Positions 14,020-59,403 of a stretch of DNA of 64,000 bases are shown here, piece after piece. Position 1 is the first letter of the stretch. Every line of letters starts with the position of its first letter. Below the pieces are notes generated by a model. The model did no database searches and was not told where the DNA came from. It was given only the letters and a program-made list of their open reading frames with translations. The DNA is taken from assembly GCA_947179485.1 (NCBI GenBank), contig OX359249.1, forward strand, positions 47,629,415 to 47,693,414, written 5' to 3'. Origin of the DNA: Allacma fusca. Its lineage: Eukaryota; Arthropoda; Collembola; Symphypleona; Sminthuridae. Both the position numbers and the translations under genes were made by a program.

Positions 14020-17000
14020 GAGTCGGGCAAGGCTGAGGGCGGTGGAGATGATTTTTGGGAATTCAAAGTGCCGCAGCCACCAAAGCCGAAAATGGAACTA
14101 AACCGTGTGGAGAAATGGGCTGAAAGCATTGAAAAGCTGCTTGGGGATCCGTGTGGTCTTGATATTTTCACAGTGAGTGTTTAATATTCAGTTTCGTGTG
14201 CATGTTAGTCAGTAATGTAATGTAATGTAGCATCTACACCAAAATCACATTTTGAAGAACCTGCCCACTGTCCGATGATAAGTGTTAGAGCTTACACGCA
14301 CTCTGTGCACATGAACTTAATCTGGTTAGATATAATTCATATTCATTATTTCATTATTAAATTTAGTAATTTTTATCTCCAGCTTTTCTCCCATTTCGAA
14401 AGGTTTATTAATTAAACGGGTATGGCCGTAGTGTCGTAGTGTTGTTTCAGTGAGATGGAAACGTTACTGCTTATAAATGGAAAAAGAACTACCATGTTTT
14501 TGCAGTTTATCTTATAAATGTTCACCCCCTCCGTAAATTATTATTGTTTTAAGAAAATATGGTTTCACTTGCAAGAGTTTACATTATAAAACTACTGCAG
14601 TCTATGATTACGCCAGGAGAATTTAATGAGGAGACGTATTTTGAATTTTACTTCAACGGTAATATATTTTGTCATACACAATTCTCGCTCACACGTACCT
14701 ACACACGTTTACAGTTCATTTGCTGACACAAAGGGGAAGTGCAGAATAATTTCATAAAAGTAGAAAGCGAGCATTTGTACGAAAGAGGATGGTCTAATTT
14801 TTTTATAATTGATTATGCCTAACGACACTCTTCTATTGAAATTACTTTCATAATAATTAAAAAGACGTCGTACGGAAATGGCGTAGCTGAAGGGTAACAT
14901 AATTGGATATGAGTCGAGAGCGGGTGGATTTCTTATGTGGAAAAGTGGAGTTAAGTATAGTAATATTGGAGTACTTTATAAGGCAGTAGTTCTTCCTCGT
15001 AGTTTCTTTCTGATGGCACCAATGTTTAAAAATGCTAGCAGTTATTAGAAAGCCATTATTTTGGTAACTGAATAGCATAATATAATGTAATCCGGCGGTA
15101 TTCAAATCCGAGAGTAATGATGGTACTGACGTACAGTACGTCACATACAATAGCAGTGAACTTTCATAAAATTGTCGATTAATCACTGATTTCATTTTTA
15201 TCGGATGACAAAAATAAATCGTTTAGAAAATCCATGTATAAATGATCAGAGATCAGATGTTAGAAGTTACATTAAATGGGATATGATACTCAGAAAATAC
15301 GAAGCACGTCTTTGACTGCTCACTCCTTGATTTCTTATTGTTAGTACTTTGTATGAAAGTATGCATATGTAGTACTGTAACAGAAAGTACGTGCATCCTC
15401 GTAAATATTGTTTCTGGGAGCTGTTAGGATTTATTGCTACTTATCTGGCGATTATTGCATTCTCTTATATTGTCCAAGGATGCACTGACTTTTACCTGGC
15501 GCGTATAAATTGGTAATCATACTTGAAGTAGTCTCTAGCCGTATTCCCTGCTAGTTAATTGTTAATTCAAGTATTAGTATCACCACCACCACACAATCAT
15601 GTTCTTTTTATACATTAATGTCTTACTCATGTGATTCAAGTTGTGTGGTAGCGTGAAATACCCATAATGTATTTTACAAGTCGGTGGTCAGGTGAACAGG
15701 CATTCTTTGGAAGTCATGTTGTTTGCCCATTTAATCTCACCTGCACACAATTTCTTTTCTTGTTGTATTCCAATGAGGGTGAAACATTCAGTGGTTTTGA
15801 AAATCTAGTGATTATCTGATGTGGGTTCAAATCTTAAAATACACAAGTTTATCGTCATAACTCCTGAATAAGTGTTTTATCAAATGCTCCTTTGTATCAT
15901 TTAAGGGTTTAAATTGTTTTGAAAATGTGTTCCCATCCTTGAAATGTATACTGTATTACTTGAGCAGTTGGTGAAGATTGACACTTTCCCAGCTTGTTGC
16001 CTTATTACTCATGATACTTGCTAGCACTAAATGGGACTAACAAATGCTGCACGTCAAGTATTCGTAGCGGAGGGATGTATGTATGCTTGTAGCGTAATAC
16101 TGGCAGTTCATTTTTCAACATCAAGTGTTTGCGGTTACACCACTGTTATGCATTGCCACTTGCAGATGAATACAACTTGCAATCAGTCACTGGTTAAAAA
16201 TGTTAGTTGTGTTGTTTAAATGAAGTAGTAGAATTTGCATAGTGGGCAAAAGTATGCGGTGTGGTCCCCATTAAAGCAAAGGCGGTGTAGCCATTTAATT
16301 GCCTCGTGTTTTTGGTTTAAGTGTCGTGTGTAGTAAGTACCACCATGCATTGGTTAAAGTTGTAGTGAAGATACATTACAAGAAATAGCGTTTACAAGTA
16401 TTGAATCTCTGTCTCTTATTTTTGTACAGGAATTTCTACAGCATGAATTCTCGGCTGAAAATATTCATTTCTACACAGCATGTCAACGTTTCAAAGAAGC
16501 CTTTACGGAACTTACCCAGTCCCAAAGGATCTCCATGGCCTCAACTATCTTCCAAAGATTCCTTCAAAATGGAGCTAGTGATCCTGTGAATGTAGATTTC
16601 CAGGTAAATTTCCCTTGCTTCAGGTTCTTAGTACATAAGGTGCTATTTTTGACTGGGTGGAATGTTATAATAATATATGAAAATTGCCGTCGGCAGCCAA
16701 CTCGTATCTATGTATATATAATGCCTTCGAAGTTAGTTTTAACCCGTTTTAGCGTATGGGAGAGTTTGTACTTGATCGTTACTGTATTGGAAAAATTAGG
16801 CCCGGTGTCAAGTTGAGAAGGCTTTGTCACTACCAACCATGGAGATGTTCGACTTGCCCTTGGCTCAAGTTTTTAACTTGCTAAAGTTTGACTGCTACCC
16901 GCGATTCTTACGATCAGATATGTTCCGTGACTTTGCCTCAGGCGTCACACCACTGCCGTTATCAGTGGGAGATGCCTCTGATTCTGATCAGGATTCCGTC

Positions 17001-25700: not shown

Positions 25701-26435
25701 TGGTTCTTATATGGCAATAAGAACACAATCAAATCAGACTTAGGAACGGTCATATGAAGATGAACTCGTGTGGGAGAGACTGGTCGGATCTGTCAAAAGG
25801 TTCAATATTGTCCAGTATTATTGACATGTACTTCCGGGACAGTGACTCAGCACAATGTCACGGTTCCATTCCACGCTCAAATTCACATTACACATATCCA
25901 CACATCCCCCTTCAACCCAAGTTGTCAAAAATCTGAAAATCAGGGTGAGTGTTCAAAACAAACTCTTAGGACGTACCTATAGACTCTACTGGCGACCAAT
26001 CTTGGACGAATGTAATTTCAGCAGGATTCTGTCGGACTGACTGTCATGGTATTTGGGGCACATGAAGAAGGAGTCTGGGCTCTATGCTGACACTTGTGCA
26101 GATGCAAATTCCTCTCTGGACTCTCCAAGAACTCCCGTTGCCCTCAGAACAGCCAATGTATGTACAATCTCTCATATACGTCCCACTCTCTACTACAAGC
26201 TTCCTCAAAAGTTCCTCCTTGAAGTCGGCTCGACACAGCTAATTCCTCCACATACGTCAATAATTAGCTCTGAATATCCCAAAAAGTATCCACTGGGAAG
26301 TAATACCTTGGAATCAATAAATAAAAAAAAATATGAATATAACCCGGACATATATAATTCACGTCAGGAAACTTTAGTAATAACTCTCCTCCAGAAAAAT
26401 GATTACTTGGGACTCTGTCGTCGTATGAGGACAAC
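25701..26435. other. Upstream flank of GOLGA7 up to the hAT insertion
   Basis: About 730 bases holding the presumed GOLGA7 promoter and 5' UTR on the minus strand. Several overlapping plus-strand frames are present, but none resembles a protein. The sequence ends in the target duplication AGGACAAC (26428-26435) of the inserted transposon. Confidence 0.5.
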
Positions 26436-26680
26436 TAGTGCTGTAATTTGTCCTTTTAGTATTGTATTGTACTTTGGCGAAAAGTACAAAAGTAGTACAA
26501 CTAAGATATTGTTTTGTACTCCGAGTTTTGTTTTTGTTTTGTACTTCTATCAGATTGTTTTTGTTTTTGTACAATCTGTATTGTATTGTTCTAAGGTTCT
26601 AGAAGACGCTAGAAATTTGCTAAAGTGATAGTTGTATCTGAGTTCAAGAGCACGTAGGAATTGATGTGTGCAACTTTAGT
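26436..26680 (+). repeat. Left long terminal inverted repeat of the hAT element
   Basis: Matches the reverse complement of 27950-28195 over its length with substitutions and small indels. The outer 12 bases are identical. It ends around the shared segment TAGGAATTGATxTGTG. Confidence 0.8.
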
Positions 26681-27260
26681 TGTTTAAAAATTACGTAAAA
26701 GATCAAAAAACCAGTCATTGACTAATCTCCCATAAGAGATGCATTGAATCTGTTGACGGTCGAATTTTGAAGGGTGCAATTCTGTGGCACCAACCTATTT
26801 GTGAATAATCCCTGTAATAACCACATCGTAATTTCCAGAACAACATAATTTCATAAACAATATTCACTACCATTGCTTAAAATTAGAATGGATAGAGTAG
26901 ACGCTTGGGCTCTGATATCTATATTTTCAATTTGCTCAGCCGTTGGCTTTTACCACCTATTTCATCGATGTAGAAATGTCCTCTATGCGTGGACTACATT
27001 TACAAATCGCATAGTTCGTTTGTTAGACTAGGTCTTTTGTCTTTGTTAGACACAGACTAGATTTATCCAGGTCAACATTTAAACCATACGGTTAGCCAAT
27101 TTTATTTATCAGTACCGATTCATTGGTATCATATCTGATGCCATTGAATTGTCATTAGCCAGTGTTGATTTAATTCGTGACCTTTTTCATGACGTCTTAC
27201 TAATCCACATTAAATGTAACCTACAACTAGTACATCTTATCGGTGGCGTCTAATAATCAA

Positions 27261-27282
27261 TATAATAATAATAATAATAATA
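27261..27282. repeat. (TAA)n microsatellite
   Basis: About seven TAA units inside the hAT element. Confidence 0.85.
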
Positions 27283-27349
27283 GGGTTTTATTGGTTGATA
27301 TAGTGGCCTCAGCCGTTACAACCTTTAATAATCAATATGGTAACAGTCA

Positions 27350-27691
27350 AAGTCATGCAACTATTAGGGACACAGTAAGGTCAATCTGAGGTCATGTGAC
27401 TATTAGTGACACAGTAAGGTAAATCGGAGGTCATGTGACTATTAGTGACACAGTAAGGTCAATCTGAGGTCATGTGACTATTAGTGACACAGTAAGGTCA
27501 ATCGGAGGTCATGTGACTATTAGTGACACAGTAAGGTCAATCTGAGGTCATGTGACTACTAGTGACACAGTAGGTCAATCTGAGGTCATGTGACTACTAG
27601 TGACACAGTAGGTCAATCTGAGGTCATGTGACTACTAGTGACACAGTAGGTCAATCTGAGGTCATGTGACTACTAGTGACACAGTAAGGTC
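27350..27691 (+). repeat. 39-bp minisatellite, about nine copies
   Basis: Copies start at 27350, 27389, 27428, 27467, 27506, 27545, 27583, 27621 and 27659. The first five are 39 bases; units from 27545 on are 38 bases through loss of one A in ACACAGTAAGG. Units at the start alternate CTG and CGG at their ends. Core strings are AGGTCATGTGACTA and AGTGACACAGTAAGGTCAAT. The last unit runs into inverted copies at about 27692-27738 and 27808-27842. Confidence 0.92.
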
Positions 27692-27842
27692 TTGTGACCT
27701 CAAATTGACCTTATTGGGTCACCAATAGTCTCATGACAGATTACGGTTTTAAGGGGCGCATGACCTATAATGAAACTTGGTGAGTAACTAGTAGTAAATC
27801 ACCTATGATTGACTTTATTGGCGCATTAATAGTCACATGACA
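27692..27842 (-). repeat. Inverted single copies of the 39-bp unit
   Basis: The minus strand of 27692-27738 reads like the array unit (ACTATTGGTGACCCAATAAG, AATTTGAGGTCA). A second, more diverged copy is at about 27808-27842 (GTCATGTGACTATTAATG on the minus strand). Together with the direct array they form a fold-back centre of the transposon. Confidence 0.75.
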
Positions 27843-27949
27843 CTAGAATGACATACTCAATGTAAGTGTATATTTTATATGGGCGATAGTAGGCGAATCT
27901 ACCAATAATCAGTCAATGCCCAGTTTTTGTGCTTTGACGTGTTTTTCAC

Positions 27950-28195
27950 GATTCCAATTACACAAATCAATTCCTATGTGCTCTAGAAATCTATTACAAC
28001 AATCACTTTAGTAAATTTCTAGCGTCTCTAGAACCTTGGAACAATACAATTTGGATTGTATTGTTTTTTTCAATTCCTGTTTTGTTTTTGTTTTAGTTTT
28101 GTATCTCGAAAATGGATATTGTTTGTTTAGTTTTGTACCAAAGACAAAAACAATACAAAAGTACAAAACTAAACGAGTACAATATTACAGCACTA
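27950..28195 (-). repeat. Right long terminal inverted repeat of the hAT element
   Basis: Reverse-complement partner of 26436-26680. The terminal 12 bases are identical, followed by a diverged stretch with GTACAAAAC/TTTTGTAC motifs. Confidence 0.8.
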
Positions 28196-28203
28196 AGGAC
28201 AAC

Positions 28204-56600: not shown

Positions 56601-59403
56601 GGAATTAGTTTCTAATCGTTTTATTACAAGAATTTTTAATGCTGCTTCCAACATTAGTGGTTTAGGTTTTAGGTTTTACTATACCATGAAAAGGAGTATT
56701 TCAATAAATGCTTCAAAATTTTAATTTCATAGCTAGAAGATTTCAACCATACTCTTCACACAGCTCTGGAGAAGTTGGTAACAACCCTTGAACAGGTAAG
56801 GTCAAATGGCCTGAGTTTACTTGTCAAGGACGAAGAAACTGTGGTACAATCAGCCAGTTGGGGAGACTTCGAAAAATCCGCATTTTTCGCCTCAACAGTT
56901 CTCACCACCATTGGTAAATAAATTCAAGAGAGTGGATTGCACTTGAATTTTCTGTGAAACTTCAACCTTTGTAATTCATGCGGCTTCAAGCTTCGATGCC
57001 TAACTGCTATTTCGCCCACTTTTTGTTTGGAGTACGTAGTTGTGAAACCGAAACCACACACGATTTTTTCTTGAGTTCTTCTTCGTTGAAAATTCCTTCT
57101 TAAGGAATTCTTGTAGGGAAATTCCATCTACTTAATTTACCATTACCATCGTATCAAATGCATGCTCATAGACTACTGTACACCCCCACACTTAAAAGAC
57201 TGAAGTAAATCAAAATAAAACCAGTTTGGCAGGACAATTCCATTCTCCGAAGTGCTCCTTGATAGTATTTCCAGGGAAATTGTAATAAATGGGAGCTGAT
57301 TTGATTTGGTCGTAATTTATGAATATTATATGAATATTCATTCAACTAGGCATTTCCAGGAACGGCCTCTTAAAACTACTGATATTGCTATGAAGCTACT
57401 ATAATATTAGAAGAATTATACGATGATATAGGACAGGTCGTAAATCTTGGAAATCAGTTCATTGGTTTTTTCTCCCGTGATTATAATTTATACTGACAGC
57501 GAGATTTTCACTAGCCAATTTTTCTCCGAGGACTCAGCACTATGGAATTCTATCATTGAATGTATTTTGATATGTGTAGGTATGCACATGAGAACACGTT
57601 TTGGGAGATATTATTGCGAAGGCCAACTTTATTGAATACAATTATGAGGACCATTTATATTTTATTTTCCAATTTCTTAAAAATAATTTTTGTTTTCTTG
57701 AATATGAAAGGAAGCTAGGTAGTCAGAAAAGCATTTTTGAATGCAAATTCATAACTCAATACGTGGAACAACCCGTTTGTTGATTATTCTTTTTAAGAAT
57801 TTAATACTTATAAACATGTACCAACCTTAAATAGATAATTATGCACATGGTGTCGCATATGTATATGCTTTCTCCCCCAAGCACGTACATTTAAAAAGGC
57901 ACAGTAAGATTTTTTGATTCCCTGTCTTTTTAATAGAATCCTTTTTAGCAAATTTTTAAAAATTACAAACATTGGCCCATATCAGCACTTAAGGTCTATT
58001 AAATGAATAGATCAAAGTCGAGATTGTTTCCGGAAAACTATCTGGTCAACGCATGGTCGCCTGAATTTTAAAAACCACTTTTTACATTCTAAAATAAATT
58101 ATTTTTAATCATGTCTAAATTGTGGGTGAGCAAGTAATATTTAATTTTTACAATAAATCTACAAGTAAGCTGTTTTGTAGTGTAATAATATTATTTGTAG
58201 AAAGTGAACTGTATATACATACGTATGTATATATTGAAGAAATCTGATAACTGCAACCTTTATAAAAAAATAGATGATATAATACAATATCTTATGTTTC
58301 CCCCTCCTGCTTCAGCCTTCTTATCCATTACTCCCTATACAGAAATTCTGATTTGGAACTATTTTTCTTCCAGACCTGATATTACATGATGAAGGAATAG
58401 GAAAAATATGATTTTTTTACTATTATGAAGGCTATGGAGATATGGCTCCGGAAACACCTTGGGGCCGGGGGTTTTGCATCCTTTTTGCCTTGATAGGCAT
58501 CCCATTTACATTAACGGTAATAGCGGACGTTGGTAAACTGATGGCTGCACTTGTTTCCATGTCAGCCAAGCGACTCAAGAAGAGTTTACCAAAGAAGACT
58601 CCCTCAGGAACCAAGTCCAAGTGTTGCAGTTCTGGTACATTTATAATTATTATTTGAAATTGACATAATGTATGAATATTCTGTTAAGCATGTATTCTCA
58701 TTGGCGTCTATTTTCTGAAATATGTACAGGAAAGTCAGCCACGGTTGCAGCAGCTGTGCTGTCTTTGCTACTTTACATCTTATTCGGGGGCTACTTATTT
58801 ACACTGTGGGAGAGCTGGGACCTTTTCAACTCTTTTTATTTCTGCTTCATTACCATGACCACCATCGGCTTGGGAGATTTGGTTCCAGGTAATTACCTTG
58901 AGCATTCAACCGAGGACTACATATATTAGGATTTATTACTTGAGATAAATATTCCAATTTGCAGAGAACACCAGCTACATTATATTATGCGTGTACATCA
59001 TGATTGGTCTGGCAATGACATCAACAGCTATTGAACTAGTCCGTATTCAGTATGCAGATTCTTGGAGGAGGATGCGGGAGTTGTCGATGCGACTCGGACC
59101 ACTTGCGGAGACTCTCAAGAAGTAATGAAGCTGGATAATAGCTTTTCAACTTTTTTTTTGGCCATAATCCTCAACATTTCTTCTTTTTTTAATTCCAGAT
59201 ACGGAGACAATATAAATCTAGACGTTAGCGTTCTACAAGATCTTAAGGAATTGAAGAAAGTTTTAGCAATGTCTTCTGGGAAACAGAGGCGTGAAGGAAG
59301 CATTTGGAAAAAGTTTTGGGAGAACGAAGATGGATATGATGATGAACCGGACTCTAATGAACCTCGTTTGATACAAATTATTATTTACGAGTCATCTGTA
59401 TAA
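47643..59403 (+). CDS. Two-pore-domain potassium channel (K2P/TWK, KCNK family), complete
   Basis: Background (leak) K+ channel of the plasma membrane; two subunits form one pore (family knowledge). Seven exons: 47643-47798, 56338-56454, 56733-56913, 58431-58634, 58730-58888, 58965-59121, 59199-59403, phases 0,0,1,1,1,2, give 392 residues. M1 is at about 34-53 (FFGHFGLFVALILYTAAGAW). The extracellular cap follows, with an NFT sequon. Selectivity filter 1 is TTIGYGD (149-155), M2 IGIPFTLTVIADVGK, M3 about 222-244, filter 2 TTIGLGD (263-269), M4 about 276-300 (CVYIMIGLAMTSTAIEL). A cytosolic tail of about 90 residues is rich in Lys and Asp/Glu. Met47643 is the first ATG, followed by a basic cytosolic N-terminus, as usual for K2P. 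It fits arthropod/nematode TWK-type channels; the exact human KCNK counterpart cannot be fixed. Confidence 0.95.
47799..56337 (+). other. First intron of the K2P channel (8.5 kb)
   Basis: Runs from donor GTATTA after GAW to acceptor TTTCCAG before VFQKLEYEEE. It contains no supported exon on either strand. A fragment resembling a non-LTR retroelement lies at 51809-52057. Small open frames at 50733-51002 and 51169-51408 match nothing I recognise. Long first introns often hold regulatory elements; none can be named here. Confidence 0.8.
51809..52057 (+). mobile_element. Possible fragment of a non-LTR retrotransposon polyprotein (C-terminal region)
   Basis: The open frame carries VFLSHGSCRKHLNKQG followed by Cys residues. 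This resembles the region after reverse transcriptase in arthropod non-LTR elements, where LxGHGxFRxYLxRxG is followed by a Cys-rich knuckle. The Cys spacing is not intact and no reverse-transcriptase catalytic motif was found nearby, so at best it is a short dead remnant. It may also be chance. Confidence 0.3.
56914..58430 (+). other. K2P intron splitting the first pore filter (1.5 kb)
   Basis: Splits the glycine codon of TTIG/YGD in phase 1: donor G|GTAAAT at 56913/56914, acceptor ATGAAG before 58431. No other feature seen inside. Confidence 0.9.

Follow-up and report, generated by a model that had tools for sequence, protein, structure and literature searches.

The element and its surroundings

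The window, that is, the whole 64,000-bp stretch of Allacma fusca DNA analysed here (G000:C5:47629415-47693414, in a genome of 392.7 Mb), contains a non-autonomous hAT element of 1760 bp at positions 26436..28195 of the forward strand. The element is delimited by its ends, by a target-site duplication (TSD), by two identical copies elsewhere and by 382 genomic matches to a pattern of its 3' end. Window and element look to be situated on the X1 chromosome. By direct reading, the 8-bp duplication is perfect, with AGGACAAC at 26428..26435 on the left and the same letters at 28196..28203 on the right (neither with a strand assigned). Immediately inside are the 5' terminal inverted repeat TAGTGCTGTAAT (26436..26447, forward strand) and its exact inverse, the 3' terminal inverted repeat ATTACAGCACTA (28184..28195, reverse strand), which pair over 12 bp. 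The duplication and the 12-bp ends had been recognized in a sequence-only reading of the window, as had the absence of a transposase frame, and all three stand. The longest stop-to-stop frame in the element is 63 amino acids, and the transposase pieces of two relatives described below (L058 and L060) found no match when searched against the element and the window.

Gene pieces flank the element at some distance, one with an RGS domain and one from an ion channel (16358..16816 and 58412..58929, ~10 and 30 kb off). A Pfam search of eight window frames gave one RGS domain and two ion-channel pieces. Rfam at gathering thresholds found nothing in the whole window, and an NCBIfam search gave no meaningful match.

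Copies in the genome

A genome search with the whole element gave 752 first-look candidates, 40 of which were scored; the 5' end alone gave 643, again with 40 scored. The 3'-end pattern matches 192 times in forward and 190 times in reverse orientation (382 genome-wide, compared with 1 and 0 for a reversed control), a count that takes in relatives such as L058 and L059, says nothing on diverged copies and detects the 3' end, not the 5' end. Forty-five family loci were fetched, the window's own included: the 39 best-scoring (L001-L039) and six (L052-L057) of 23 new places found with the 5' end. Both ends are present in 44 of the 45, and each of these 44 has a perfect 8-bp duplication, which is trivial in L020, an insertion inside a (TG)n tract. 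L016 (G000:C10:52865300-52868900) has lost its 3' end, and a 10-bp tandem repeat tract starts ~240 bp past the last match.

Copies elsewhere with the same boundaries were a check set by the sequence-only reading, and they exist: two of them, which lie on chromosomes 3 and 4 (contigs C12 and C10), match the window copy to the last base over 1760 bp. A recent insertion of the window copy is supported. The 1500-bp flanks of L001-L008, the window copy among them, gave no match to each other by blastn at E 1e-5. Outside the tandem array described below, pairwise divergence among the 40 elements from L001-L039 has a mean of 2.4% and a maximum of 8.3%, a value to which misaligned insertions in L013-L015 have probably added. 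Element length across the family is 1406-5587 bp, which is long for a MITE. With no coding capacity, shared ends and a high copy number, the family has the attributes of a MITE, or non-autonomous hAT derivative.

L012 (G000:C1:80816100-80824700) might have been a dimer or a coding copy of greater length, but both readings were dropped: it is a segmental duplication in which one copy and the flank upstream of it are repeated (1 difference in the 121 bp compared). The sequence between the two copies holds a 510-codon frame, perhaps from another mobile element. At L008, a second 5'-end-like motif (≤3 mismatches to the 17-base end) is present ~125 bp past the 3' end of the element.

Transposase-bearing relatives

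The hAT dimerization domain gave 860 first-look candidates in the genome, and among the 150 scored every row listed was above the cut-off; judging by these domain matches, hAT sequences are abundant in A. fusca. L058 and L059 emerged when the 3'-end matches (first 100 places: C1, C4 and part of C5) were crossed by eye with the hAT-domain hits, and L060 was picked for its 642-codon frame.

L058, of 3876 bp, lies on the same chromosome as the window element, and has identical 12-bp ends and a perfect TSD, GATATACG. It shares with the window element the 5' end at 26436..26701 (forward strand; 81% over the first 266 bp, 267 columns) and the 3' end at 28079..28195 (forward strand; 84% over the last 117 bp). 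Its hAT transposase gene consists of same-frame pieces of 294 and 349 amino acids with one stop between them. The 349-residue piece carries Dimer_Tnp_hAT (E 2e-14), and no BED match was found in the N-terminal piece. A second, truncated 3' end is seen at L058:2489-2549 (80% over 66 columns, last bases AGTACAGCACTA), where the L058 TSD does not adjoin.

L060 (4062 bp, perfect TSD CCTGTGAG) has one end that is 1 base different from the 12-bp end of the window element. Its open frame of 642 amino acids includes both zf-BED (E 2e-6) and Dimer_Tnp_hAT (E 2e-12), and the protein shares 50% and 58% identity with the two pieces of L058. In the PDB, the closest match to this transposase is Hermes (E 4e-11), whose solved structures are 4d1q, 6dww and 8edg, followed by the BED finger of ZBED1 (E 0.003). 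L059 has a 433-residue hAT frame and a 3' end that matches at 74% over 120 columns; its 5' end was not found within the fetched stretch. In L040-L051, the 12 best hAT-domain loci, end motifs with ≤3 mismatches formed no convincing pair by eye, in stretches of ~3.2 kb that are too short to exclude one.

The 8-bp TSD and a terminal inverted repeat of 10-25 bp are given as hAT traits in the accessible text of one source (PMC3942097). Here, the 8-bp TSD is found in all 44 loci with both ends and the terminal inverted repeat is exact over 12 bp. In addition, hAT transposases are encoded by relatives whose ends are identical (L058, stop-interrupted) or differ by a single base at one end (L060). The hAT assignment made in the sequence-only reading is upheld by these relatives and duplications. 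The autonomous partner that it had envisaged, with the same 12-bp ends and a hAT transposase with RNase-H fold and BED finger, was largely recovered, though in parts: L058 has the ends and the dimerization domain, but is interrupted and gave no BED match, and L060 has both domains, but is one end base off. An intact immediate partner was not found among the relatives examined, the closest transposase-bearing copy being 81-84% alike at the ends, with an interrupted gene.

Anatomy of the ends

The ends had been read as inverted repeats of ~245 bp. Terminal identity covers 12 bp only, and the long inverted similarity is that of an inner pair, 79% over 157 columns. The left arm lies at 26570..26726 (forward strand; element positions 135-291) and the right arm, an inverted copy of the 5' subterminal region, at 27908..28060 (reverse strand; element positions 1473-1625). 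When the first 134 bp of the element are compared with the last 135 bp inverted, 47 positions match, and in 60 shuffles the number was 49.8 on average and at most 65. Since the outer ends beyond 12 bp are no more alike than shuffled sequence, this comparison rules out a 245-bp terminal inverted repeat.

How did the inner pair originate? In L058 and in L060, the two relatives tested, the first 500 bp have no inverted match within the element concerned, and there is no inner arm. As both relatives are without the long repeat, it looks like a secondary inner duplication in the family of the window element. Inverted, the right arm aligns at 71% with the L058 5' end, and the simplest history would therefore be that a 5' subterminal piece was copied in inverted orientation beside the 117-bp 3' end.

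The outer 134 bp of the shared 5' end are rich in GTAC and TTTTGTA. GTAC is present 5 times at the 5' end and 3 times at the 3' end of the window element, 5 and 5 times in L058 and at neither end of L060, with 0.19-0.39 in shuffles (0.27-0.39 for the window element and L058); the corresponding counts of TTTTGTA are 3 and 4, 4 and 4, and 0 and 1. AAGT occurs 4 times at the 5' end of the window element (1.4 in shuffles, with 11 of 300 shuffles as high), and there is no enrichment at its 3' end (1 vs 1.5 in shuffles). In Hermes, the BED domains bind short subterminal repeats, AAG(T/C), according to the portion of the source available (PMC10368747).

The tandem core

Passed over in the sequence-only reading is a tandem array at 27352..27691 (forward strand), in which TRF finds 8.8 copies of a 39/38-bp unit. 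The array has 4 to 106 units in the 40 elements, where 595 units of 63 types were counted, and 3 to 19 units in six further loci. L021 and L023 are 1 substitution apart and have 14 vs 25 units; L030 and L031 have no substitution outside the array and 15 vs 16 units; the three identical copies, the window's included, have 9 units each. The units are gained and lost fast, a rapid turnover. L009 (G000:C12:3014900-3021800), with a core of ~106 units and 5587 bp, has kept its perfect TSD. L058 lacks the 39-bp array.

Within the 39-bp unit are AGGTCA-n5-AGGTCA and GTCATGTGAC. The first of these resembles a nuclear-receptor direct repeat; the element has 7 forward copies and 1 reverse copy of it, and the rest of the window has none. 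Does the array have a function, such as extra sites for transposase binding or host factors that are selected for mobility, and is it thus more than a product of passive slippage? The confinement of AGGTCA-n5-AGGTCA to the element within the window would agree with this. The array is also present in all 40 elements scored, but the 39 loci from which these come had been selected for similarity to the entire query, of which the array is a part; the six loci selected on the 5' end only have it as well. Yet the motifs of the ends, GTAC, TTTTGTA and AAGT, are all missing from the array, the one-unit difference between L030 and L031 is what plain slippage is expected to produce, and the hAT relative L058 is without such an array. 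A functional array is decidedly improbable.

Target preference

Target statistics are based on 43 sites, with L012 left out as a segmental duplication. When the TSDs are oriented, 38 of the 43 are centred on YRYR, a motif found at 6.4% of window positions, and 42 have RY at positions 4-5 (vs 24%). A T is present two bases before the 8-mer in 28 sites (vs 33%) and an A two bases after it in 28 (vs 31%); of the 43 sites, 13 have a full TA on the left side and 14 have one on the right (vs 8.6%). The preferred target is a palindromic 12-bp sequence, T-n-SnYRYRnS-n-A. The window's own target, AGGACAAC, has no YRYR centre.

Members of the Ac group, and also Hermes, follow the target rule nTnnnnAn, and those of the Buster group nnnTAnnn. 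Of the 43 sites, 8 have T at position 2, 8 have A at position 7 and 2 have both. Position 4 is never T and position 5 is never A (0 of 43 each). The YRYR rule is unlike the Ac and Buster rules, and the family target nnYRYRnn differs from the nTnnnnAn of Hermes. The authors who named the Tip group did not look into target preference, as far as the accessible part of their paper indicates (PMC3942097).

Head-to-tail dimers

L010 (C10) and L011 (C12) hold two elements each, arranged head to tail, with the same 8-mer present three times. One L010 unit differs by 3 substitutions from L028, a copy with a separate location, and the second unit by 19 or more from every one of the 29 others compared; their arrays have 4 vs 23 units. 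In L011 the two units are 18 apart. Unit 1 is 7 from L004, and unit 2 is closest to its neighbour (18), with L004 next (19); the arrays consist of 23 units (mostly 39-bp) vs 30 (mostly 38-bp). Unlike units, with arrays that differ in length and in unit types, point to two putative independent insertions at a single 8-bp site; L010 is the clearer case of the two.

The 64 kb contain 476 instances of SnYRYRnS, which extrapolates to ~2.9 million in the genome. By a rough inference, a few hundred copies would give ~0.05-0.1 chance same-site insertions overall vs 2 seen in 45 loci, a comparison that is only suggestive, as 39 of the loci are the best scored and dimers may score better. Could an inserted element renew its own target? 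Every element starts and ends with TA, by which the motif regains its outer T and A around both duplicated 8-mers. By its own target rule, the family might thus refresh its targets, into which unlike copies would insert in the same orientation, so that head-to-tail arrays would grow from a single site. This is a tentative idea, possible though somewhat doubtful. If true, such self-targeting would explain how DNA transposons seed tandem arrays.

Or are the dimers in L010 and L011 ordinary products of recombination or duplication, and not of repeated insertion into the same target? There are just two among the 45 fetched family loci, and L012, where upstream flanks differ at 1 of 121 bases, shows that segmental duplication of copies occurs. 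Unit 2 of L011, moreover, is nearer to its own neighbour (18) than to L004 (19). Recent duplication would yield near-identical units, however, and the arrays are unequal. One unit of L010 is only 3 substitutions from L028 and its partner at least 19 from the 29 others compared, and a unit of L011 is 7 from L004 while the two units of that locus differ at 18. An origin by ordinary recombination or duplication is unlikely.

Origin and movement of the family

What kind of element is this? It very probably belongs to a young non-autonomous hAT family of A. fusca that is moved by a hAT transposase with a BED finger, produced from another place in the genome. The transposase would bind the 12-bp ends and the adjoining GTAC/TTTTGTA repeats and, presumably by cutting, excise the element. 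The element would then be pasted across an 8-bp target, preferentially T-n-SnYRYRnS-n-A, and the target would thereby be duplicated. The ends may have been inherited from an L058-like autonomous element and the middle replaced by other sequence with the 39-bp tandem array, in which units would come and go fast. The right inner arm would be an inverted 5' subterminal copy, perhaps made by template switching during gap repair. Several findings count against this explanation: the closest transposase-bearing copy is only 81-84% alike at the ends and has an interrupted gene, L058 gave no BED match, AGGACAAC is without a YRYR centre and AAGT is not enriched at the 3' end.

Galileo and Tetris are fold-back elements with long terminal inverted repeats. 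One may ask whether the window element is a true fold-back element as well, with long terminal inverted repeats that have grown from the tips and a transposase of another superfamily. The element does have a 157-bp pair of inner inverted arms as well as a tandem array, and the accessible text on Tetris of D. virilis reports 8-10 bp TSDs and internal repeats (PMC4079207). However, the outer 134 bp are not inverted repeats past 12 bp, with no likeness beyond chance, so that long repeats do not extend up to the tips. The array is central and outside the arms, hAT transposases are encoded by the relatives whose ends are identical or almost so, and L058 and L060 are without the long inverted repeat. 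A true fold-back element is highly improbable. Of the earlier description, a MITE-like or fold-back element, the non-autonomous part is retained, and a fold-back structure with 245-bp repeats is not, given the relatives without a long repeat.

Among known systems, Hermes shares with the non-autonomous hAT family the 8-bp TSD, a short terminal repeat and unlike ends with short subterminal repeats, as far as the available text goes (PMC10368747), and with the relative L060 the BED finger and hAT dimerization domain. The window element differs in being without a transposase and in its subterminal repeats, GTAC/TTTTGTA. Published hAT MITEs of ~1-6 kb, in the portions of the reports available, also have internal tandem repeats and tandem accumulation, but with units of 167-169 bp that are tied to inversion breakpoints, whereas a 39-bp unit is central here. 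Cod and Drosophila offer precedents for internal repeats in the accessible parts of that literature. Tetris of Drosophila virilis is likewise non-autonomous, with internal tandem repeats that vary and expand in number; its unit is ~220 bp, in contrast, the repeats are within long terminal repeats and the authors suggest Mutator, in the text available (PMC4079207). The mar and BuT2 MITEs of Drosophila are also short non-autonomous hAT families (PMC3517528), the BuT2 MITEs with TSDs (PMC3942097), and the limited text of these two papers does not note a tandem core or an inner inverted duplication. Among the papers listed by a literature search on springtail transposons, none was on the subject by title.

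The family is of an ordinary non-autonomous hAT kind, seen young and clean. Its 39-bp core of 3 to 106 units, the YRYR target rule and the presence of unlike copies in one 8-mer at two loci are unusual. A springtail with chromosome elimination thus gains a well-defined, very recent hAT family together with transposase-bearing relatives. The sharp target rule and the size-varying core make both target choice and re-insertion beside an existing copy testable.
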